IMG/VR virus record: IMGVR_UViG_3300025853_000411
Coordinates: 1 to 30,827 of that record
Source of the DNA: a virus
Direction: 5' to 3' (one strand)
DNA: 30,827 bases
This document shows positions 3,360-18,155 of this stretch, in pieces. Within the stretch, counting starts at the first letter, position 1. Each line of letters opens with the position of its first letter. Below the pieces are notes generated by a model, which made no database searches, was not told where the DNA came from, and saw nothing but the letters and a program-made list of their open reading frames with translations. The position numbers and the translations under genes are program-made.

Positions 3360-3842
3360 ATGGCGGGAAAGCAGTTAAGAAACAGAATATTGCAGCATAT
3401 TGAGCAAAATGGTGGCGCTGAGTATGTGCATGAGATGGCGTCGAGCATGACGCTGAAGGCCTGGGCTGCCAAGGAATGGGAGTGCAGTCGTAACTACCTG
3501 AGCGAAACGATCCGCAGTGTTCCTGAGTATGCGCGTGCATTGGATCGCGCGCAGTCTGTCTTGGCTGACGCGATGATGGAGGAGAATGTTGAGATTGCTG
3601 ATGGTATTCCAGAAACGGCCACGACTGCTCAGATTGCCAAGGTTCGTGAGCAGATGAACGCGCGAAAGATGTTGGCGGCTGGGCTGAATAGGGATCGGTA
3701 CGGCTCGGGGCCAAAGACAGAGATTACGTTAAATCTGGGTGATTTGCATTTGGATGCGTTACGAAAGATCAGCTCGGATCGTCAGGCGTTGATGGCTGAG
3801 GATCGGGATCGAGAGATGAGGGTGATTGAGCATGACGAGTGA
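3360..3842 (+). CDS. terS: Terminase small subunit
   Basis: DNA-recognition subunit that selects phage DNA and hands it to the large subunit during packaging. The 160-aa length is normal for the family. An HTH-like segment lies at about residues 30-55 (TLKAWAAKEWECSRNYLSE). A central helical oligomerisation region follows, with the family-typical ADAMMEENVEIADGIPE, and then the conserved end of the core, QMNARKMLAAGLNRDRYG. The ATG has GAGG four bases upstream and a sigma70-like promoter just before it. The large-subunit gene overlaps its 3' end, as expected for a co-translated pair. Family assignment rests on motif resemblance and this neighbour. Confidence 0.85.
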   Translation: MAGKQLRNRILQHIEQNGGAEYVHEMASSMTLKAWAAKEWECSRNYLSETIRSVPEYARALDRAQSVLADAMMEENVEIADGIPETATTAQIAKVREQMNARKMLAAGLNRDRYGSGPKTEITLNLGDLHLDALRKISSDRQALMAEDRDREMRVIEHDE

Positions 3843-5235
3843 GAGCAATCCATTTGAGGATTTTACGCTGCAATACATGGATGATCCTGTATTGTTTGTG
3901 AAAGAGGTGTTAGGCGCGGAGCCTTTGGAATATCAGGCTGAGTTTTTGAATGCGATTGCGTCTGGCGAGCGTAAGATTTCAATTAGGTCGGGGCATGGTA
4001 CAGGGAAGTCTACGAGCGCGAGTTGGGCGATGCTGTGGTATTTGCTGATGCGTTTTCCGAATAAGGTTGTTGTGACTGCCCCGACGTCGGGTCAGTTGTT
4101 TGACGCGCTATTTGCGGAGTTGAAACGGTGGATTGGTGAGCTGCCGAAGCCTGTTCAGGATCTTTTGACGGTTAAGAGTGATCGTGTTGAGCTGTCGGCT
4201 GCGCCGTCTGAGATGTTTATATCGGCTCGGACGTCGCGTGCAGAGACGCCAGAGGCTTTGGCTGGGGTACACTCGGATAATGTGCTTTTGGTTGTTGACG
4301 AGGCTTCTGGTGTCCCTGAGAAGGTGTTTGAGGCGGCTGCTGGTAGTATGTCGGGTCACAATGCGACGACTGTGTTGCTGTCAAACCCTACGAGGTCGAG
4401 CGGTACGTTTTATGAGACACAGAACAGGATGTCTGACAGTTGGTGGACGCGGCGATGGAGCTGCGTAGAAAGTCCTTTGGTGTCGGATGAGTTTGTTGAC
4501 GAGATGCGTGAGCGTTATGGGGAGGAGAGCAATGCGTTTCGTATTCGTGTGTTGGGTGAGTTTCCTTTAGCTGATGATGACACGATTGTGCCGTTTCACT
4601 TGGTTGATGCGGCGATGAATAGGGATATTGAGGTTGATGCTGAAAGAGCGCCTGTTTGGGCGTTAGACCCGGCGCGATTTGGGACAGACAGAACGGCGTT
4701 TTGCAAGCGTGTTGGTAATGTTGTGACTGAGATTAAAAGCTGGCGCGGTTTGGATTTGATGCAGACTGTTGGGCGTGTGATGGCGGAATATGAGGCTTTG
4801 CCGCCAAGCCAGCGGCCCGGTGAGATCTTGGTTGATAGTATCGGTATTGGGTCGGGGGTTGTTGATCGAATGCGTGAGTTGGGTGCGCCTGTTCGTGGTG
4901 TTAATGTTGCTGAAAGCCCTAGCATGGGTGCGACGTATAATAATTTGCGCACTGAGCTGTGGTTTAAGACAAAGGCTTGGCTGGAGGATCGGTCTTGCAA
5001 GTTGCCGAAGGATGATGAGCTTTTGGCTGATCTAACGGGTATAAGGTATTCGTTTACGTCTTCTGGGAAGATGGCAGCTGAGGGTAAGGATCAGATGCGC
5101 AAGCGTGGGCTGCGTTCTCCTGACTTGGCGGATGCTGTTTGTTTGACGATGGCGTCTGACGCGGCGATGGCGCTGTCTGGGCCGTTGTCGTCTTGGAAGG
5201 GCGAAATAAGAAGAAATTTGCGCGGAATTGCGTAA
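3832..5235 (+). CDS. terL: Terminase large subunit
   Basis: Packaging motor: an ATPase that pumps DNA through the portal and a nuclease that cuts concatemers. From ATG 3832 (467 aa): Walker A GHGTGKS at 54-60, Walker B LLVVDEA at 152-158 with catalytic Glu157, and a coupling-type LLSNPT near 185. The C-terminal RNase H-like nuclease has acidic residues at Asp279 (ALDPARFG), Asp335 (LVDSIGIG) and Asp431/Asp434 (DLADAV). All expected catalytic groups are present. An upstream in-frame TTG at 3826 is possible, but ATG 3832 is preferred; it overlaps the small-subunit stop by 11 bases. Codons are strongly G/T-rich. Portal does not follow, which is unusual. Confidence 0.95.
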   Translation: MTSESNPFEDFTLQYMDDPVLFVKEVLGAEPLEYQAEFLNAIASGERKISIRSGHGTGKSTSASWAMLWYLLMRFPNKVVVTAPTSGQLFDALFAELKRWIGELPKPVQDLLTVKSDRVELSAAPSEMFISARTSRAETPEALAGVHSDNVLLVVDEASGVPEKVFEAAAGSMSGHNATTVLLSNPTRSSGTFYETQNRMSDSWWTRRWSCVESPLVSDEFVDEMRERYGEESNAFRIRVLGEFPLADDDTIVPFHLVDAAMNRDIEVDAERAPVWALDPARFGTDRTAFCKRVGNVVTEIKSWRGLDLMQTVGRVMAEYEALPPSQRPGEILVDSIGIGSGVVDRMRELGAPVRGVNVAESPSMGATYNNLRTELWFKTKAWLEDRSCKLPKDDELLADLTGIRYSFTSSGKMAAEGKDQMRKRGLRSPDLADAVCLTMASDAAMALSGPLSSWKGEIRRNLRGIA

Positions 5236-5403: not shown

Positions 5404-6171
5404 ATGGCTAATCGTTTTAGAGACATTATGGATTTGATTGACGGCGGTGGCGCTGGGCAGATGGGCAGCCAGTTTGAGGGCGGTGGTTTGCTGTCTGTGA
5501 TTGCGAACCAAATTGCCAAGCCATATGCCTCTGTTGATGAAGAGCGGCGTCGTGCATTGATGCAGATGCGCGGTTTGCTTGATGAGGAGCCTAATGCTGG
5601 ATCTGCGCCTATGGGGACGTCTGGCGGCGGTGTTATTGGTGGCGGCGTTAACGCCCCGGCTGGTACTGGTGGTAGTGATTTGCCTAACACAGTTCCGAAT
5701 GTTTCTGGCATTATGGACGTTGCGCCATTGGGTGGGTCTAATCCGCGCGTTCAGGAAATTATACGTCAACGTCAGGCTGCAAATGCTCCCACCCCACCTT
5801 CTCCTCCAATCACGATGGGCGGCAATCATCCGGGGATGGGGCCGCTCGGCCCTGAGCTGATGCCTGCGTCGTCTAGCATGGCTTCTGGCGCTCCTCAGTC
5901 TAGTCCAATTGGAATGCCTCCTGTGACGCCTGCTGGCGGCCCTGCGATAGTTTCTCCAGATCGTGAACGGTTTCCAATGACGAGCGAGACAGGCGGTATT
6001 GCTAAATCTATGGATGAATATGAAGAATATATTGCTGAACTGATGGTTGACGTATATGGCGCGGAGGCAGAAAGTCGCATTAAGGCGCAAATGGACGCAG
6101 ACCCTAACTTTTGGCAGAATTCGTATAATAGCTATTTGCAAAGCCTTGGAGTGATGCCGAATGGCGGTTAA
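5404..6171 (+). CDS. Gly/Pro-rich hypothetical virion-associated protein (255 aa)
   Basis: Not recognised by family. The N-terminus is short and helical (MANRFRDIMDLIDGGG). The middle, about residues 60-195, is low complexity, rich in Gly, Pro, Ser and Met and probably disordered. The C-terminal 55 residues look folded and acidic (SMDEYEEYIAELMVDVYG ... NSYLQSLGVMPNGG). No signal or transmembrane segment. AAGGG lies about nine bases before ATG. It sits among head/packaging genes and overlaps the next gene by 11 bases, so it is probably a minor virion or internal protein. A protein-interaction role for the folded C-terminus is inference. Confidence 0.7.
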   Translation: MANRFRDIMDLIDGGGAGQMGSQFEGGGLLSVIANQIAKPYASVDEERRRALMQMRGLLDEEPNAGSAPMGTSGGGVIGGGVNAPAGTGGSDLPNTVPNVSGIMDVAPLGGSNPRVQEIIRQRQAANAPTPPSPPITMGGNHPGMGPLGPELMPASSSMASGAPQSSPIGMPPVTPAGGPAIVSPDRERFPMTSETGGIAKSMDEYEEYIAELMVDVYGAEAESRIKAQMDADPNFWQNSYNSYLQSLGVMPNGG

Positions 6172-6379: not shown

Positions 6380-7969
6380 ATGGCGACTGCTGAAGAGATA
6401 AGACGCGCAAGGGAAGAGACGAGCGTCTTTGCTCCATTGTTTGAGTATGCGCGGTCTAATAGGTCGCAACTTGCGTCAGAAGGTCGTCGGCCTGTTTTGG
6501 GTGGTTTGCTGTCAAAAGAGCCTGTGATGGGTACTGACACTCTGCGTTATGAAGGTGTTGGCTCATTGTTTGCAAATCTTCTTGACCCGATTGCTAGAGG
6601 CGTTGATGCGCCTCGTGCTGCGGCTCAGGACTTGATCCCACAAGAGGATATGGTTGGCGAGGCGTTTGGAACTGCTGGGACTGCTATGCTTGGCGGTGGA
6701 GCAGTTGCTAAGCCTGCGGGATCGTTGGGCATGAACGTGCTGCGAGATACTCCTTTAGAAGGCTTTGAGGGCTACTTGTCGCGCGTGAACCCAAGCGGCA
6801 AGAGGATTGCGGCAGAAGATCGGCCCAATCTGATGATGGGCGATATGTATGGTATGCTGCCGCGTAACTCTGATGTTATTGGTGAGAAGGGTGGTGTCAC
6901 ATTCTACCGCAGCCCAGACGGCGACTATTACGCGACTGCTTACAATCCTGATGTCGGTGAGCAAGACGTTGTTGGCTACATTACGGATCGAGGCGACAGC
7001 ACAGAATTGCAAGTCGTTGCTGAAATGCAAGGGCAGGGCATTGGCGGCGAATTGCAGTATTTATTCCGCAGCGAAAACCCTGATGCGCCTACAGGTGGAT
7101 TGACAGAAGCAGGCGAAAGGGCGCTTGAGCGCACATATGATCGTATGTTTGATGAGGGCTTGGTTTCCGCCAACGCTTCAAAAAGCGCTGGACTGTTATC
7201 AGTCGCATCAGACGTATCCGCACGCGGTGATCAGATATTGAACATGCTAAAGTCTGGCAGAGGTCCTGAAGTGACTGACGCGATGCTAGACATGGGCGAC
7301 AGCGTGAAAAATACTCAATTAAATCAGTACCTTGCGGCTAATTATGATTTACCTATGGATGAGGCAAGCCGATTGGCTCGTGCGCGTGAGATAGGGTTTA
7401 ATGTTGATGATGTTCAATATCATGGTACAGCTCCATCAATGTACTCAGATGATGATTTTTCTCCTGACATCACTGCTTTTATACCTGGCGTTAAAGGTCA
7501 GTTAGGGGCAGGTGTTTATGTCGCTCCTGACGTTAGGAAAGCTAATAAGTTTGCGAGTGCTGGTGAAGTCAATCGAGGCGACTTTGATCCTAATAAAGCT
7601 GTACCTAGAGGCGGCTCTGTACTCCCAGTTTATATAAGAAGTTCAAACCCAGCATCTTATGGCGAAATGAGAAACGCGCAGTATGGCTTAGAAAATGTTT
7701 CTGGATTTAATGATTTATCTATGAGGGGAACTCAGTCGCTATCAGATGAAGGTTTTACAGGTGTCAGAACTGGCAACGAGGAAAATGTTTTTGATCCCAA
7801 CAATATAAGATCAACAAATGCACGTTTTGACCCTCGTTTGTCTGAGTTGGAAAATATCATGGCAGCCAACGCTTCACCAATAAGTGGCCTTTTGGCGCAA
7901 TCTGGTGTATCAAGTGAGCAAGCGCAGAGAATAGAAGACTATCTCTTAAAGACAGGATTGTTACAGTAA
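6380..7969 (+). CDS. Large virion protein with GNAT-like and ADP-ribosyltransferase-like segments
   Basis: A 529-aa multi-domain protein. Residues 1-120 are helical, with a Gly/Ala-rich hydrophobic stretch (GTAGTAMLGGGAVAKP) of the type seen in ejected virion proteins. At about 145-250 there is a GNAT-like acetyl-CoA-binding motif, EMQGQGIGGEL (Q217-x-x-G220-x-G222). At about 345-490 there is an ART-PolyVal-like domain: YHGT at 347-350, GAGVYVAP at 376-383, PVYIRSSNPASYG, and the family-typical end EENVFDPNNIRS (467-478) followed by ARFDP. The C-terminus is LKTGLLQ. ART enzymes move ADP-ribose from NAD to host targets; an injected host modifier is the main inference. From about 7300 on, base composition becomes clearly more AT-rich, suggesting a grafted domain. 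Confidence 0.7.
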   Translation: MATAEEIRRAREETSVFAPLFEYARSNRSQLASEGRRPVLGGLLSKEPVMGTDTLRYEGVGSLFANLLDPIARGVDAPRAAAQDLIPQEDMVGEAFGTAGTAMLGGGAVAKPAGSLGMNVLRDTPLEGFEGYLSRVNPSGKRIAAEDRPNLMMGDMYGMLPRNSDVIGEKGGVTFYRSPDGDYYATAYNPDVGEQDVVGYITDRGDSTELQVVAEMQGQGIGGELQYLFRSENPDAPTGGLTEAGERALERTYDRMFDEGLVSANASKSAGLLSVASDVSARGDQILNMLKSGRGPEVTDAMLDMGDSVKNTQLNQYLAANYDLPMDEASRLARAREIGFNVDDVQYHGTAPSMYSDDDFSPDITAFIPGVKGQLGAGVYVAPDVRKANKFASAGEVNRGDFDPNKAVPRGGSVLPVYIRSSNPASYGEMRNAQYGLENVSGFNDLSMRGTQSLSDEGFTGVRTGNEENVFDPNNIRSTNARFDPRLSELENIMAANASPISGLLAQSGVSSEQAQRIEDYLLKTGLLQ

Positions 7970-8586
7970 TGGCTATTACAACCTACGCAGAACTAAAGAC
8001 AGCAATAGGCAACTGGCTAAACCGGGATGACCTAACGTCAATTATTCCTGATTTTATCAGTCTTGCCGAGGCTGACATGGATCGCAAAGTGCGCCACTGG
8101 CGCATGGAGCAGCGCAGTACGGCAGACATAGACGCGCGTTACACTCAGTTGCCACAGGGCTTTATGGAAGCTGTACGCTTTCACCTGGACGTTGACGAGC
8201 GCCCTATTGAGCTGGTTACGCCTTTATCGTTGCAGACATATCGGCGCAACAATGCAGACACGACAGGCCGCCCTCAATACTATTCAATAATCGCCGGGCA
8301 AATTGAGGTTTGGCCTACGCCAGATAGCGCTTACACAGGCGAGCTTTATTATTACGCTCGAAACGCGCCCCTTGATGACAGCAATACCTCAAACTGGATC
8401 TTGCAGTACTTCCCTGATGCGTATTTGTATGGCGCTCTAACACACTCAGCGCCTTACCTTGTTGACGATCAGCGCACGCAAGTGTGGGCGTCGTTGTACC
8501 AAAACGCAATCGATGGTATAAACGCTAACAACGAAAAAGCCAAGTTTGGCGGCTCGGGCTTGCGCATGCAGGTCAACACATTCTAG
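7969..8586 (+). CDS. Phage adaptor / head-tail connector protein
   Basis: Resembles adaptor proteins (P22 gp4 / SU10 adaptor type) that bind under the portal and receive the tail. The 205 aa include an N-terminal helical segment typical of the group (MAITTYAELKTAIGNWLNR, then IPDFISLAEADMDRKV). A beta-rich middle follows with LPQGFMEAVRF and IEVWPTPDSAYTGELYYYA, and then a helical end containing the YLYGALTHSAPYL segment. TAATG overlap with the preceding gene gives the start. It opens the tail gene block. The family call rests on pattern recognition of these segments, not on a search. Confidence 0.7.
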   Translation: MAITTYAELKTAIGNWLNRDDLTSIIPDFISLAEADMDRKVRHWRMEQRSTADIDARYTQLPQGFMEAVRFHLDVDERPIELVTPLSLQTYRRNNADTTGRPQYYSIIAGQIEVWPTPDSAYTGELYYYARNAPLDDSNTSNWILQYFPDAYLYGALTHSAPYLVDDQRTQVWASLYQNAIDGINANNEKAKFGGSGLRMQVNTF

Positions 8587-9438: not shown

Positions 9439-9909
9439 ATGCCCCTTAAAATTAACTCAACAAATGGCTCAGTAACGCTTACGCCAGAGGATGGTGTAGG
9501 CAATGTTGATATTACTGTTCCGCGTTCGCCGATTGTAGGGCAAGATCATGCGGGGGAGTTAGTTGTTGATAGCTACAACGAGCGATACGAGGCTGTTACA
9601 TCTACATCAAACGCAACTACTGTTGACTGCGAAAACGCAAACTCGTTTAGCCACACGCTGACTGAGAACACGACTTTCACGTTTAGCAACCCGCCAGCAA
9701 GCGGCACTGCATATACGTTTAGCATTGAGATCATTCAGGATGCGTCTGCGTCTGGTTACACGGTAACTTGGCCTGCGGCTGTTGATTGGCCCAGCGCAAC
9801 TGCACCTACGCTAACTGCAACGGCATCTGCGAAAGATTTGTTTGTATTTATGACGCGCGATGGCGGCACAACTTGGTATGGCTTCACGGCTGGTCAGGCA
9901 CTGGGGTAG
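9439..9909 (+). CDS. MPLK-type tail fibre protein, copy 1 (156 aa)
   Basis: A beta-rich fibre protein starting MPLKINSTNGSVTLTPEDG, then VPRSPIVG. Its C-terminal domain has the order TTVDCENANSFSHTL, TTFTFSNPPASG, YTVTWPAAVDWPS and DGGTTWYGFTAGQALG. This C-terminal pattern is repeated in the gene at 11707, so the two are paralogs; copy 2 has an extra shaft segment. The Trp/Tyr-rich end suggests a surface-binding tip. GGAGATAG precedes the ATG. Receptor-binding or decoration role is inferred. Confidence 0.7.
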   Translation: MPLKINSTNGSVTLTPEDGVGNVDITVPRSPIVGQDHAGELVVDSYNERYEAVTSTSNATTVDCENANSFSHTLTENTTFTFSNPPASGTAYTFSIEIIQDASASGYTVTWPAAVDWPSATAPTLTATASAKDLFVFMTRDGGTTWYGFTAGQALG

Positions 9910-11706: not shown

Positions 11707-12237
11707 ATGCCACTGAAGTTTAACACAGCAAACGGCGCAATCATTGTATCTGCGGAAGATGGCAGCGGTGACGCAGCGGTTACGTTTCCGCGATCTAACC
11801 CAGTTGGGGAGACACACACTGGCAACGTGAGCATTACTGGCGATTTAACAACGACAGGTGCGGTGGATATTACTGGTGATGCAGAGATAGATGGCACTTT
11901 TTATGCTAAGGTATATGAAGAAGCAGAAATAGCTTTAAGCCTTACGACGACGATTGACTGCTCAACGAGTAACTTTTTTAGGGGGTCTTTTAACGGTAAC
12001 ACAACTTATACATTTACAAATCCTCCAACAGAAGCTCTTAGAGCCTATAGCTTTACCCTACAGCTAAAGAACGCTGGCAGTGGATCAGCTACATTAACAT
12101 GGCCCACTTCGGTTAAATGGGCTGGCGGCACTGCACCTGACGCCCCTGCGGCTGGCGAAACAGATTATTTTGTATTTACAACGCATAACAACGGCACGGA
12201 TTGGTACGGCTTCCAAGCTGGGGATGCAATGTCATGA
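11707..12237 (+). CDS. MPLK-type tail fibre protein, copy 2 (176 aa)
   Basis: Paralog of the 9439 gene. It shares the start MPLKFNTANGAIIVSAEDG and PRSNPVG, and the C-terminal order TTIDCSTSNFF, TTYTFTNPPTEA, ATLTWPTSVKWAGG and NNGTDWYGFQAGDAMS. Between them it has a shaft-like insert, GNVSITGDLTTTGAVDITGD, with the alternating beta pattern of trimeric fibres. The copies flank the propeller and chaperone genes, so a duplication enclosing this module is likely. The stop overlaps the next ATG (ATGA), so the next gene is probably translated by re-initiation. Confidence 0.7.
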   Translation: MPLKFNTANGAIIVSAEDGSGDAAVTFPRSNPVGETHTGNVSITGDLTTTGAVDITGDAEIDGTFYAKVYEEAEIALSLTTTIDCSTSNFFRGSFNGNTTYTFTNPPTEALRAYSFTLQLKNAGSGSATLTWPTSVKWAGGTAPDAPAAGETDYFVFTTHNNGTDWYGFQAGDAMS

Positions 12238-17474: not shown

Positions 17475-18155
17475 ATGCGCGGTAAGCAAGAAAAAACGCA
17501 AGAGCTTACGCCTGAAGCAAAAGAGCAATACCAATTAGCCAAGCAGTTGGGAGCAATTGGTACGCCAATGTATCGAGGGCCAGAGATCGCGGCGGTTAAT
17601 CAGGCTGAATTGGCGTCTCGAGGTAATGTTAATGAGATGGCTTCAGCTCTTGGCTTGCAGGGCGCAGGCTCTTTATCAATTGGCGCTCCAACAGCAACGC
17701 AAGGCGGCGTAACTGGTTACACGACATATCAAGGCGGCCAAGCTGCTTTGGACATGCTGAAGCGTTTTGAGCCTGGCAGATACAAAGCTCTAATGGACAT
17801 GATGATTGATCCAGTAACTGGAAAGATGCCTGACTTTGTGTCGGGATCAACGCCTGCTGCTCAGGCTGCTCCAGCGAGTTCTGGTGGTGGCGGCGGTGAT
17901 GATGGGCCAAACATGCGTGAGTTTATGGATCAAGCAAGAGAAAATGCGAGGAAGCCGAGTAGCGTACCCTACACTGGAGACTATCCAAATATGTCGTCTA
18001 TGCCTGCAATAGCGGGTTATACGACGCCAGCTACTCCAGCAGAAAGCACTTTCGCTTCTGATTTGTCACGTTCCTTAACCGACAGTTCATACGATCCTCC
18101 GGGAACTGTATTCTCTCGCACAGTAGACAAGTTAAAGACAGGATTGTTGGGGTAA
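17475..18155 (+). CDS. Hypothetical internal/virion protein (226 aa)
   Basis: No family recognised. Helical start rich in Glu/Lys/Gln (QELTPEAKEQYQLAKQLG), a Gly/Ala/Thr-rich middle with a GGGGGDDG linker, and the C-terminal sequence FSRTVDKLKTGLLG. The last segment is shared with the 529-aa protein at 6380, where the genes have 17 identical bases. It is the first gene of a run of Ala/Gln-rich candidate ejection proteins. No signal peptide or membrane helix is visible. Confidence 0.65.
   Translation: MRGKQEKTQELTPEAKEQYQLAKQLGAIGTPMYRGPEIAAVNQAELASRGNVNEMASALGLQGAGSLSIGAPTATQGGVTGYTTYQGGQAALDMLKRFEPGRYKALMDMMIDPVTGKMPDFVSGSTPAAQAAPASSGGGGGDDGPNMREFMDQARENARKPSSVPYTGDYPNMSSMPAIAGYTTPATPAESTFASDLSRSLTDSSYDPPGTVFSRTVDKLKTGLLG

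Follow-up and report, generated by a model that had tools for sequence, protein, structure and literature searches.

Constant ends and exchangeable enzyme-like modules in a probable compact polyvalent protein of a marine podophage

Most of what is known about phage polyvalent proteins comes from large and unwieldy sequences. In the account of Iyer et al. (2017, PMC5512222), a single chain of this kind unites several predicted effector domains, among them ADP-ribosyltransferase (ART) domains with GNAT, ParB-like and metallopeptidase domains, and the proteins are characterised by a late-gene context and domain shuffling. Two GNAT families are named there. In one GNAT family of these proteins, an ART domain is the typical neighbour in the same polypeptide, and the active-site residues of the polyvalent ART family are H, Y and D (PMC5512222). 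The packaging of phage ARTs has been argued (PMC9503650), and polymorphic toxins (Zhang et al. 2012, PMC3482391) join a constant part to recombining effector cassettes. The phage protein considered here contains a GNAT-like and an ART-like module and thus has at least two predicted effector domains in one polypeptide, as polyvalent proteins do. Because Iyer et al. (2017) describe it, the pairing of GNAT with ART, which an earlier note on this DNA did not recognise as described, is not new.

The gene is located in the window, the whole stretch of DNA that was analysed, which is a virus record of 30,827 bases. The gene and its neighbours are as follows:

3826..5235, + strand: large terminase; 30 of the 34 relatives with room for it have it upstream of the N-terminal region
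5404-6171: small Gly-rich ORF between the large terminase and the polyvalent ORF
6380..7969, + strand: coding sequence of the predicted polyvalent protein of 529 aa (P0001), ATG start
7969..8586, + strand: SU10-type adaptor, the next gene, directly downstream in 25 of the 48 relatives with room for it

The 529-aa reading frame is real and is under purifying selection. In comparisons with close relatives, where dS is unsaturated, dN/dS is 0.02-0.10 for the GNAT-like and ART-like modules; for the N-terminal part it is mostly 0.02-0.10, but 0.28 against L005. The TAA stop overlaps the ATG of the next gene (TAATG, 7967-7971), and genes for the portal, scaffold and major head protein are found beyond the adaptor. 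The earlier note had placed the gene beside head genes, and this is borne out: it belongs to the head/packaging cluster and, given the recurrence of its neighbours, is encoded with late/virion genes, like polyvalent proteins. It is most likely that the protein would be made late, alongside the head proteins. It could also be a host-takeover or anti-defence enzyme that the late operon supplies inside the infected cell and that is not packaged; no packaging signal is proven and co-transcription with the neighbours would suffice. This is quite improbable, however, since both the late-cluster position and the behaviour described for polyvalent proteins (PMC5512222) favour packaging, and an ART-like part is present in a solved podophage pre-ejectosome.

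Within the protein, the following parts were distinguished:

6380..6730, + strand: N-terminal constant region, residues 1-117, with a Gly/Ala-rich end, common to 77 IMG/VR loci
6730..7168, + strand: exchangeable cassette; DNA homology to L001, L003, L005 and L007 ends at 6729/6730 and restarts at 7169
6755..7165, + strand: GNAT-like module, residues 126-262 (family alignment, model, Pfam in relatives, profile match)
7028..7045, + strand: Q-x-x-G-x-G acyl-CoA-type loop, residues 217-222 (MQGQGIGGELQ), conserved
7169..7198, + strand: inter-module linker ANASKSAGLL, residues 264-273, modelled as disordered
7184..7405, + strand: helical stretch ahead of the ART core, residues 269-342, in which D327, R331 and R334 are invariant
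7406..7843, + strand: ART-like core, residues 343-488 (Pfam, model, fold match, conservation)
7421..7423, + strand: candidate catalytic H348, in 49 of 49 sequences
7517..7519, + strand: candidate catalytic Y380, in 41 of 49 sequences
7778..7795, + strand: stretch with the candidate acidic residue, E467 (32/49) or D472 (30/49)
7865..7894, + strand: second linker ANASPISGLL, residues 496-505, modelled as disordered
7895..7966, + strand: constant C-terminal tail ending in GLLQ, present in many relatives

Scans of IMG/VR yielded 39 whole-protein relatives, as well as 40 loci with the GNAT module, 275 with the ART module (80 kept) and the 77 with the N-terminal region, the contigs partly overlapping. 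Dozens of environmental phages have the N-terminal ~120 aa in common, many of them also the last ~35 aa, and the modules between these ends differ. The modules found behind the N-terminal region are GNAT-like, ART of several types, ParB-like, metallopeptidase-like and LPD23-like, the names being matches to self-chosen seeds, of which Pfam or PHROGs back only some. With gaps counted as different, 88 proteins display 62 module strings, which corresponds to the domain shuffling of polyvalent proteins. No named phage was retrieved when the N-terminal region alone was the query; in a local comparison, this region and gp6 (MW805364.1, 2752-4233) of a cultured relative, Octadecabacter Antarctic DB virus 2, shared 47% identity over 121 residues.

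In L001, the flanking DNA matches the window at 95-97% identity over 5.4 kb upstream, over 1.3 kb including the N-terminal part and over 1.5 kb downstream, and an ART-like module takes the place of the GNAT-like one between window positions 6730 and 7169. The same breakpoints, 6729/6730 and 7169, enclose other modules in L003 and L005, and in L007 (383 aa) the cassette between them is absent. An additional left junction at 6671 is common to L003 and L012. Thus, cassettes have been exchanged at this one locus with common breakpoints. Such phages, ~96% identical in flanking DNA and different in one cassette, together with the relative without a cassette, represent natural isogenic contrasts. If the protein is injected, they would make the role of each module and the loading signal directly testable.

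Constant ends with a swapped middle therefore suggest that the protein is probably one of the multi-enzyme proteins thought to be injected by phages, a known class, in a compact, interchangeable form. We favour, and consider probable, the reading that this marine podophage encodes a compact polyvalent effector, carried in the virion and injected, with exchangeable enzyme modules. The exchange also bears on another view of the gene, in which its product is part of the head-tail connector or ejection core, or helps to assemble it, with ART- and GNAT-like folds that serve as inactive scaffolds. A middle module that is swapped or absent in close relatives would hardly be tolerable in a structural part, and H348 is invariant and Y380 nearly so; the location in the head cluster, the variable acidic position of the ART-like module and its best fold match, which belongs to a solved podophage pre-ejectosome chain, speak for a scaffold. 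On balance, a scaffold seems distinctly unlikely.

Compared with the polyvalent proteins described (PMC5512222), the group is far shorter, at 306-904 aa in most relatives, and has a common N-terminal region, one syntenic locus and exchangeable cassettes. The window protein also contains no metallopeptidase, and its GNAT module had no match in 50,697 named phage records (E up to 1). Polymorphic toxins (PMC3482391) resemble it in joining a constant part to recombining cassettes, whereas here the gene is a late-cluster phage gene and the cassettes are internal, between two constant ends. No description of a compact frame with one-locus cassette exchange was found in a literature search that covered part of the literature, and virion proteomics for a near relative was not found in the literature either (the phiGT1 paper reports mass spectrometry).

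Judging by sequence and model, residues 126-262 are likely, although not proven, to be a reduced GNAT. The loop R/Q-x-x-G-x-G/A that follows strand 4 in GNATs is found at residues 217-222, and in the module family, 34 aligned sequences from viral contigs, Q217 is present in 33 and G218, G220 and G222 in all. The AlphaFold2 model (mean pLDDT 89.3) comprises five strands, the loop and then two helices, and in its C-lobe the final strands of a full GNAT are seemingly absent. The top five rows of a Foldseek search were MYST acetyltransferase domains, with probability 0.97-1.00 and E 0.013-0.035, the latter above 0.01, followed by metallo-beta-lactamases at lower probability. In a second structural comparison, the best 50 rows were all GNAT/MYST-type acetyltransferases with Z 5.8-7.4, values below 8 that may reflect chance or a common arrangement. 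Independently, Pfam Acetyltransf_7 reaches into this module in two relatives, L022 (E 0.001) and L026 (E 0.008), and a Pfam search with the window protein's own module gave no match. The module profile also aligned, loop and subsequent helices included, with a bona fide GNAT3 module from these phages (P 3e-4; two controls, P 0.39 and 0.41).

It is conceivable that the loop sits on an unrelated or repurposed alpha/beta fold and that the mid-module is no acetyltransferase, as the Foldseek E values, the incomplete C-lobe and the missing Pfam match in the window protein would allow. We consider this unlikely in view of the second comparison, in which the listed rows were all acetyltransferases, of the Acetyltransf_7 matches in two relatives and of the alignment with GNAT3. 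A pattern-limited scan of 84,980 species genomes gave no confirmed relative of the module; searched against PDB sequences, its profile matched one chance repeat protein only and the full 529-aa protein matched nothing.

The GNAT module also occurs outside the constant-end frame, in proteins of 220 to >2,500 aa, of which some also match ART-PolyVal strongly. In L030 (6858-10622), it is central (residues 484-618) in a 1255-aa protein that resembles a large internal virion protein and to which Pfam assigned no family. Polyvalent proteins of >1,700 aa with the module were found in L069 (695-8395), L071 (1-5331), L073 (2195-7450) and L075 (1094-6811), and those of L071 and L073 have strong ART-PolyVal matches too.

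The ART-like core is matched by Pfam ART-PolyVal (PF18760) at residues 343-488 with E 3.4e-4 and 21.8 bits; because the curated gathering cut-off is 31.2, the window protein is not filed as a formal member. Relatives with the same module reach 58-102 bits. The structure prediction proposed in the earlier note yielded nearly only ART/PARP rows for this segment and leading acetyltransferase rows for the preceding one, leaving the final GNAT strands unclear and the ART model middling (pLDDT 69.5; one row from a named phage record was left out of the ART input). Among the fold matches, chain B of the cyanophage A4 pre-ejectosome ranks first (9k3a_B; E 2.5e-4, Z 8.4 over 128 residues) and is part of a podophage ejection core; it is a 1071-residue chain, known here by its title and fold match, with 16% identity over the 128 residues. 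The rows after it are almost wholly PARPs, with other ARTs and the toxin MbcT among them, and Z is 5.8-8.4 among the listed rows. When the ART profile was compared with PDB sequences, 13 of 14 matches were ARTs, exotoxin A and PARPs, all weak (E 0.12-0.6). If the protein is injected, the GNAT/ART pair would be tied to the ART-like part of the podophage pre-ejectosome structure.

The candidate active-site residues H348 (strand 1), Y380 (strand 2) and E467 or D472 (strand 5) have the order expected for ART-PolyVal and for the H-Y-acidic clade, the acidic position varying within the family. R477 is invariant in all 49 aligned sequences. By its sequence, the module is of the H-Y-acidic (PARP/exotoxin-like) type and not R-S-E. 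The likeness to T4 Alt drawn in the earlier note may therefore concern deployment at most, as a packaged, injected ART, since Alt is an R-S-E ART (PMC5512222) and the window protein has conserved H, Y and E/D and a GNAT-like partner. Otherwise the motifs that it quoted are present, Q-x-x-G-x-G together with YHGT (347-350), GAGVYVAP (376-383) and FDPNNIRS (471-478), and they are beyond chance because residues within them (Q217, G218, G220 and G222; H348, Y380 and R477) are invariant or nearly so in the 34 GNAT-module and 49 ART-module sequences. The Gly/Ala-rich lead was recovered at about residues 93-117, the proposed domain edges (140-250 and 340-490) proved close to those found, and the succession of a GNAT-like and an ART-like segment in one protein is supported by models, fold rows and profiles, the GNAT being probably reduced.

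At module edges, the motif ANxS[K/P/R]xxGLL recurs, its core giving 72 matches in 66 proteins against 1.6 in shuffles, a count inflated by related sequences. Selection on the linkers at the DNA level was rejected, as their excess codon identity (0.33-0.67) did not exceed the level in control motifs from the same genes (0.35-0.63). Two linker copies stand head to tail in L180 (386-1399) and L185 (854-1867) (ANASKSAANASPL), which might be what the loss of a cassette between them leaves. The leader AxLRRQANIxRFGYDPN precedes two unrelated modules, an R-S-E-type ART and a GNAT, in L184 (1709-2701) and L060 (162-1898), and may therefore be a travelling module header.

Protein ends with GLL and at most three further residues were found in 17 of 45 non-redundant group members and in 1 of 195 further long ORFs at these loci; in the set from the ART scan, which partly overlaps the 45, 11 of 24 distinct ends were of this type. 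As the motif was picked after seeing the data and several ends are homologous, this enrichment is a lead only. GLL ends occur commonly in polyvalent proteins from these phages. The window encodes another Gly/Ala-rich protein (17475-18155), apparently unrelated, whose end is KTGLLG, to be compared with KTGLLQ of the polyvalent protein (GLLQ, 7955-7966).

According to the favoured reading, the constant N-terminal region, in many relatives together with the constant C-terminal tail, would flank one or more enzyme modules, in the window protein a reduced GNAT-like acetyltransferase and an H-Y-acidic ADP-ribosyltransferase. The protein would most likely travel inside the particle, close to the portal or ejection core, and enter the host together with the DNA, where the modules would alter host proteins early in infection in an acyl-CoA- and NAD-dependent manner. 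Modules would enter, leave and replace one another as cassettes bounded by flexible ANASxxxGLL linkers. A more far-reaching proposal, possible but rather doubtful, is a miniature polymorphic delivery system, in which a loading frame, made up of the constant N-terminal region and a C-terminal -GLL(x) end that is constant or convergent, brings any cassette between ANASxxxGLL linkers into the virion, and swaps at one locus track host defences. In such a frame, GLL would be a short motif by which the protein docks to the portal or ejection core.

Elsewhere in the window, two ORFs (9439-9909 and 11707-12237) match the same tail-fibre families (phrog_9017 and others), which suggests a duplicated fibre C-terminal domain flanking a fibre-assembly-like ORF.
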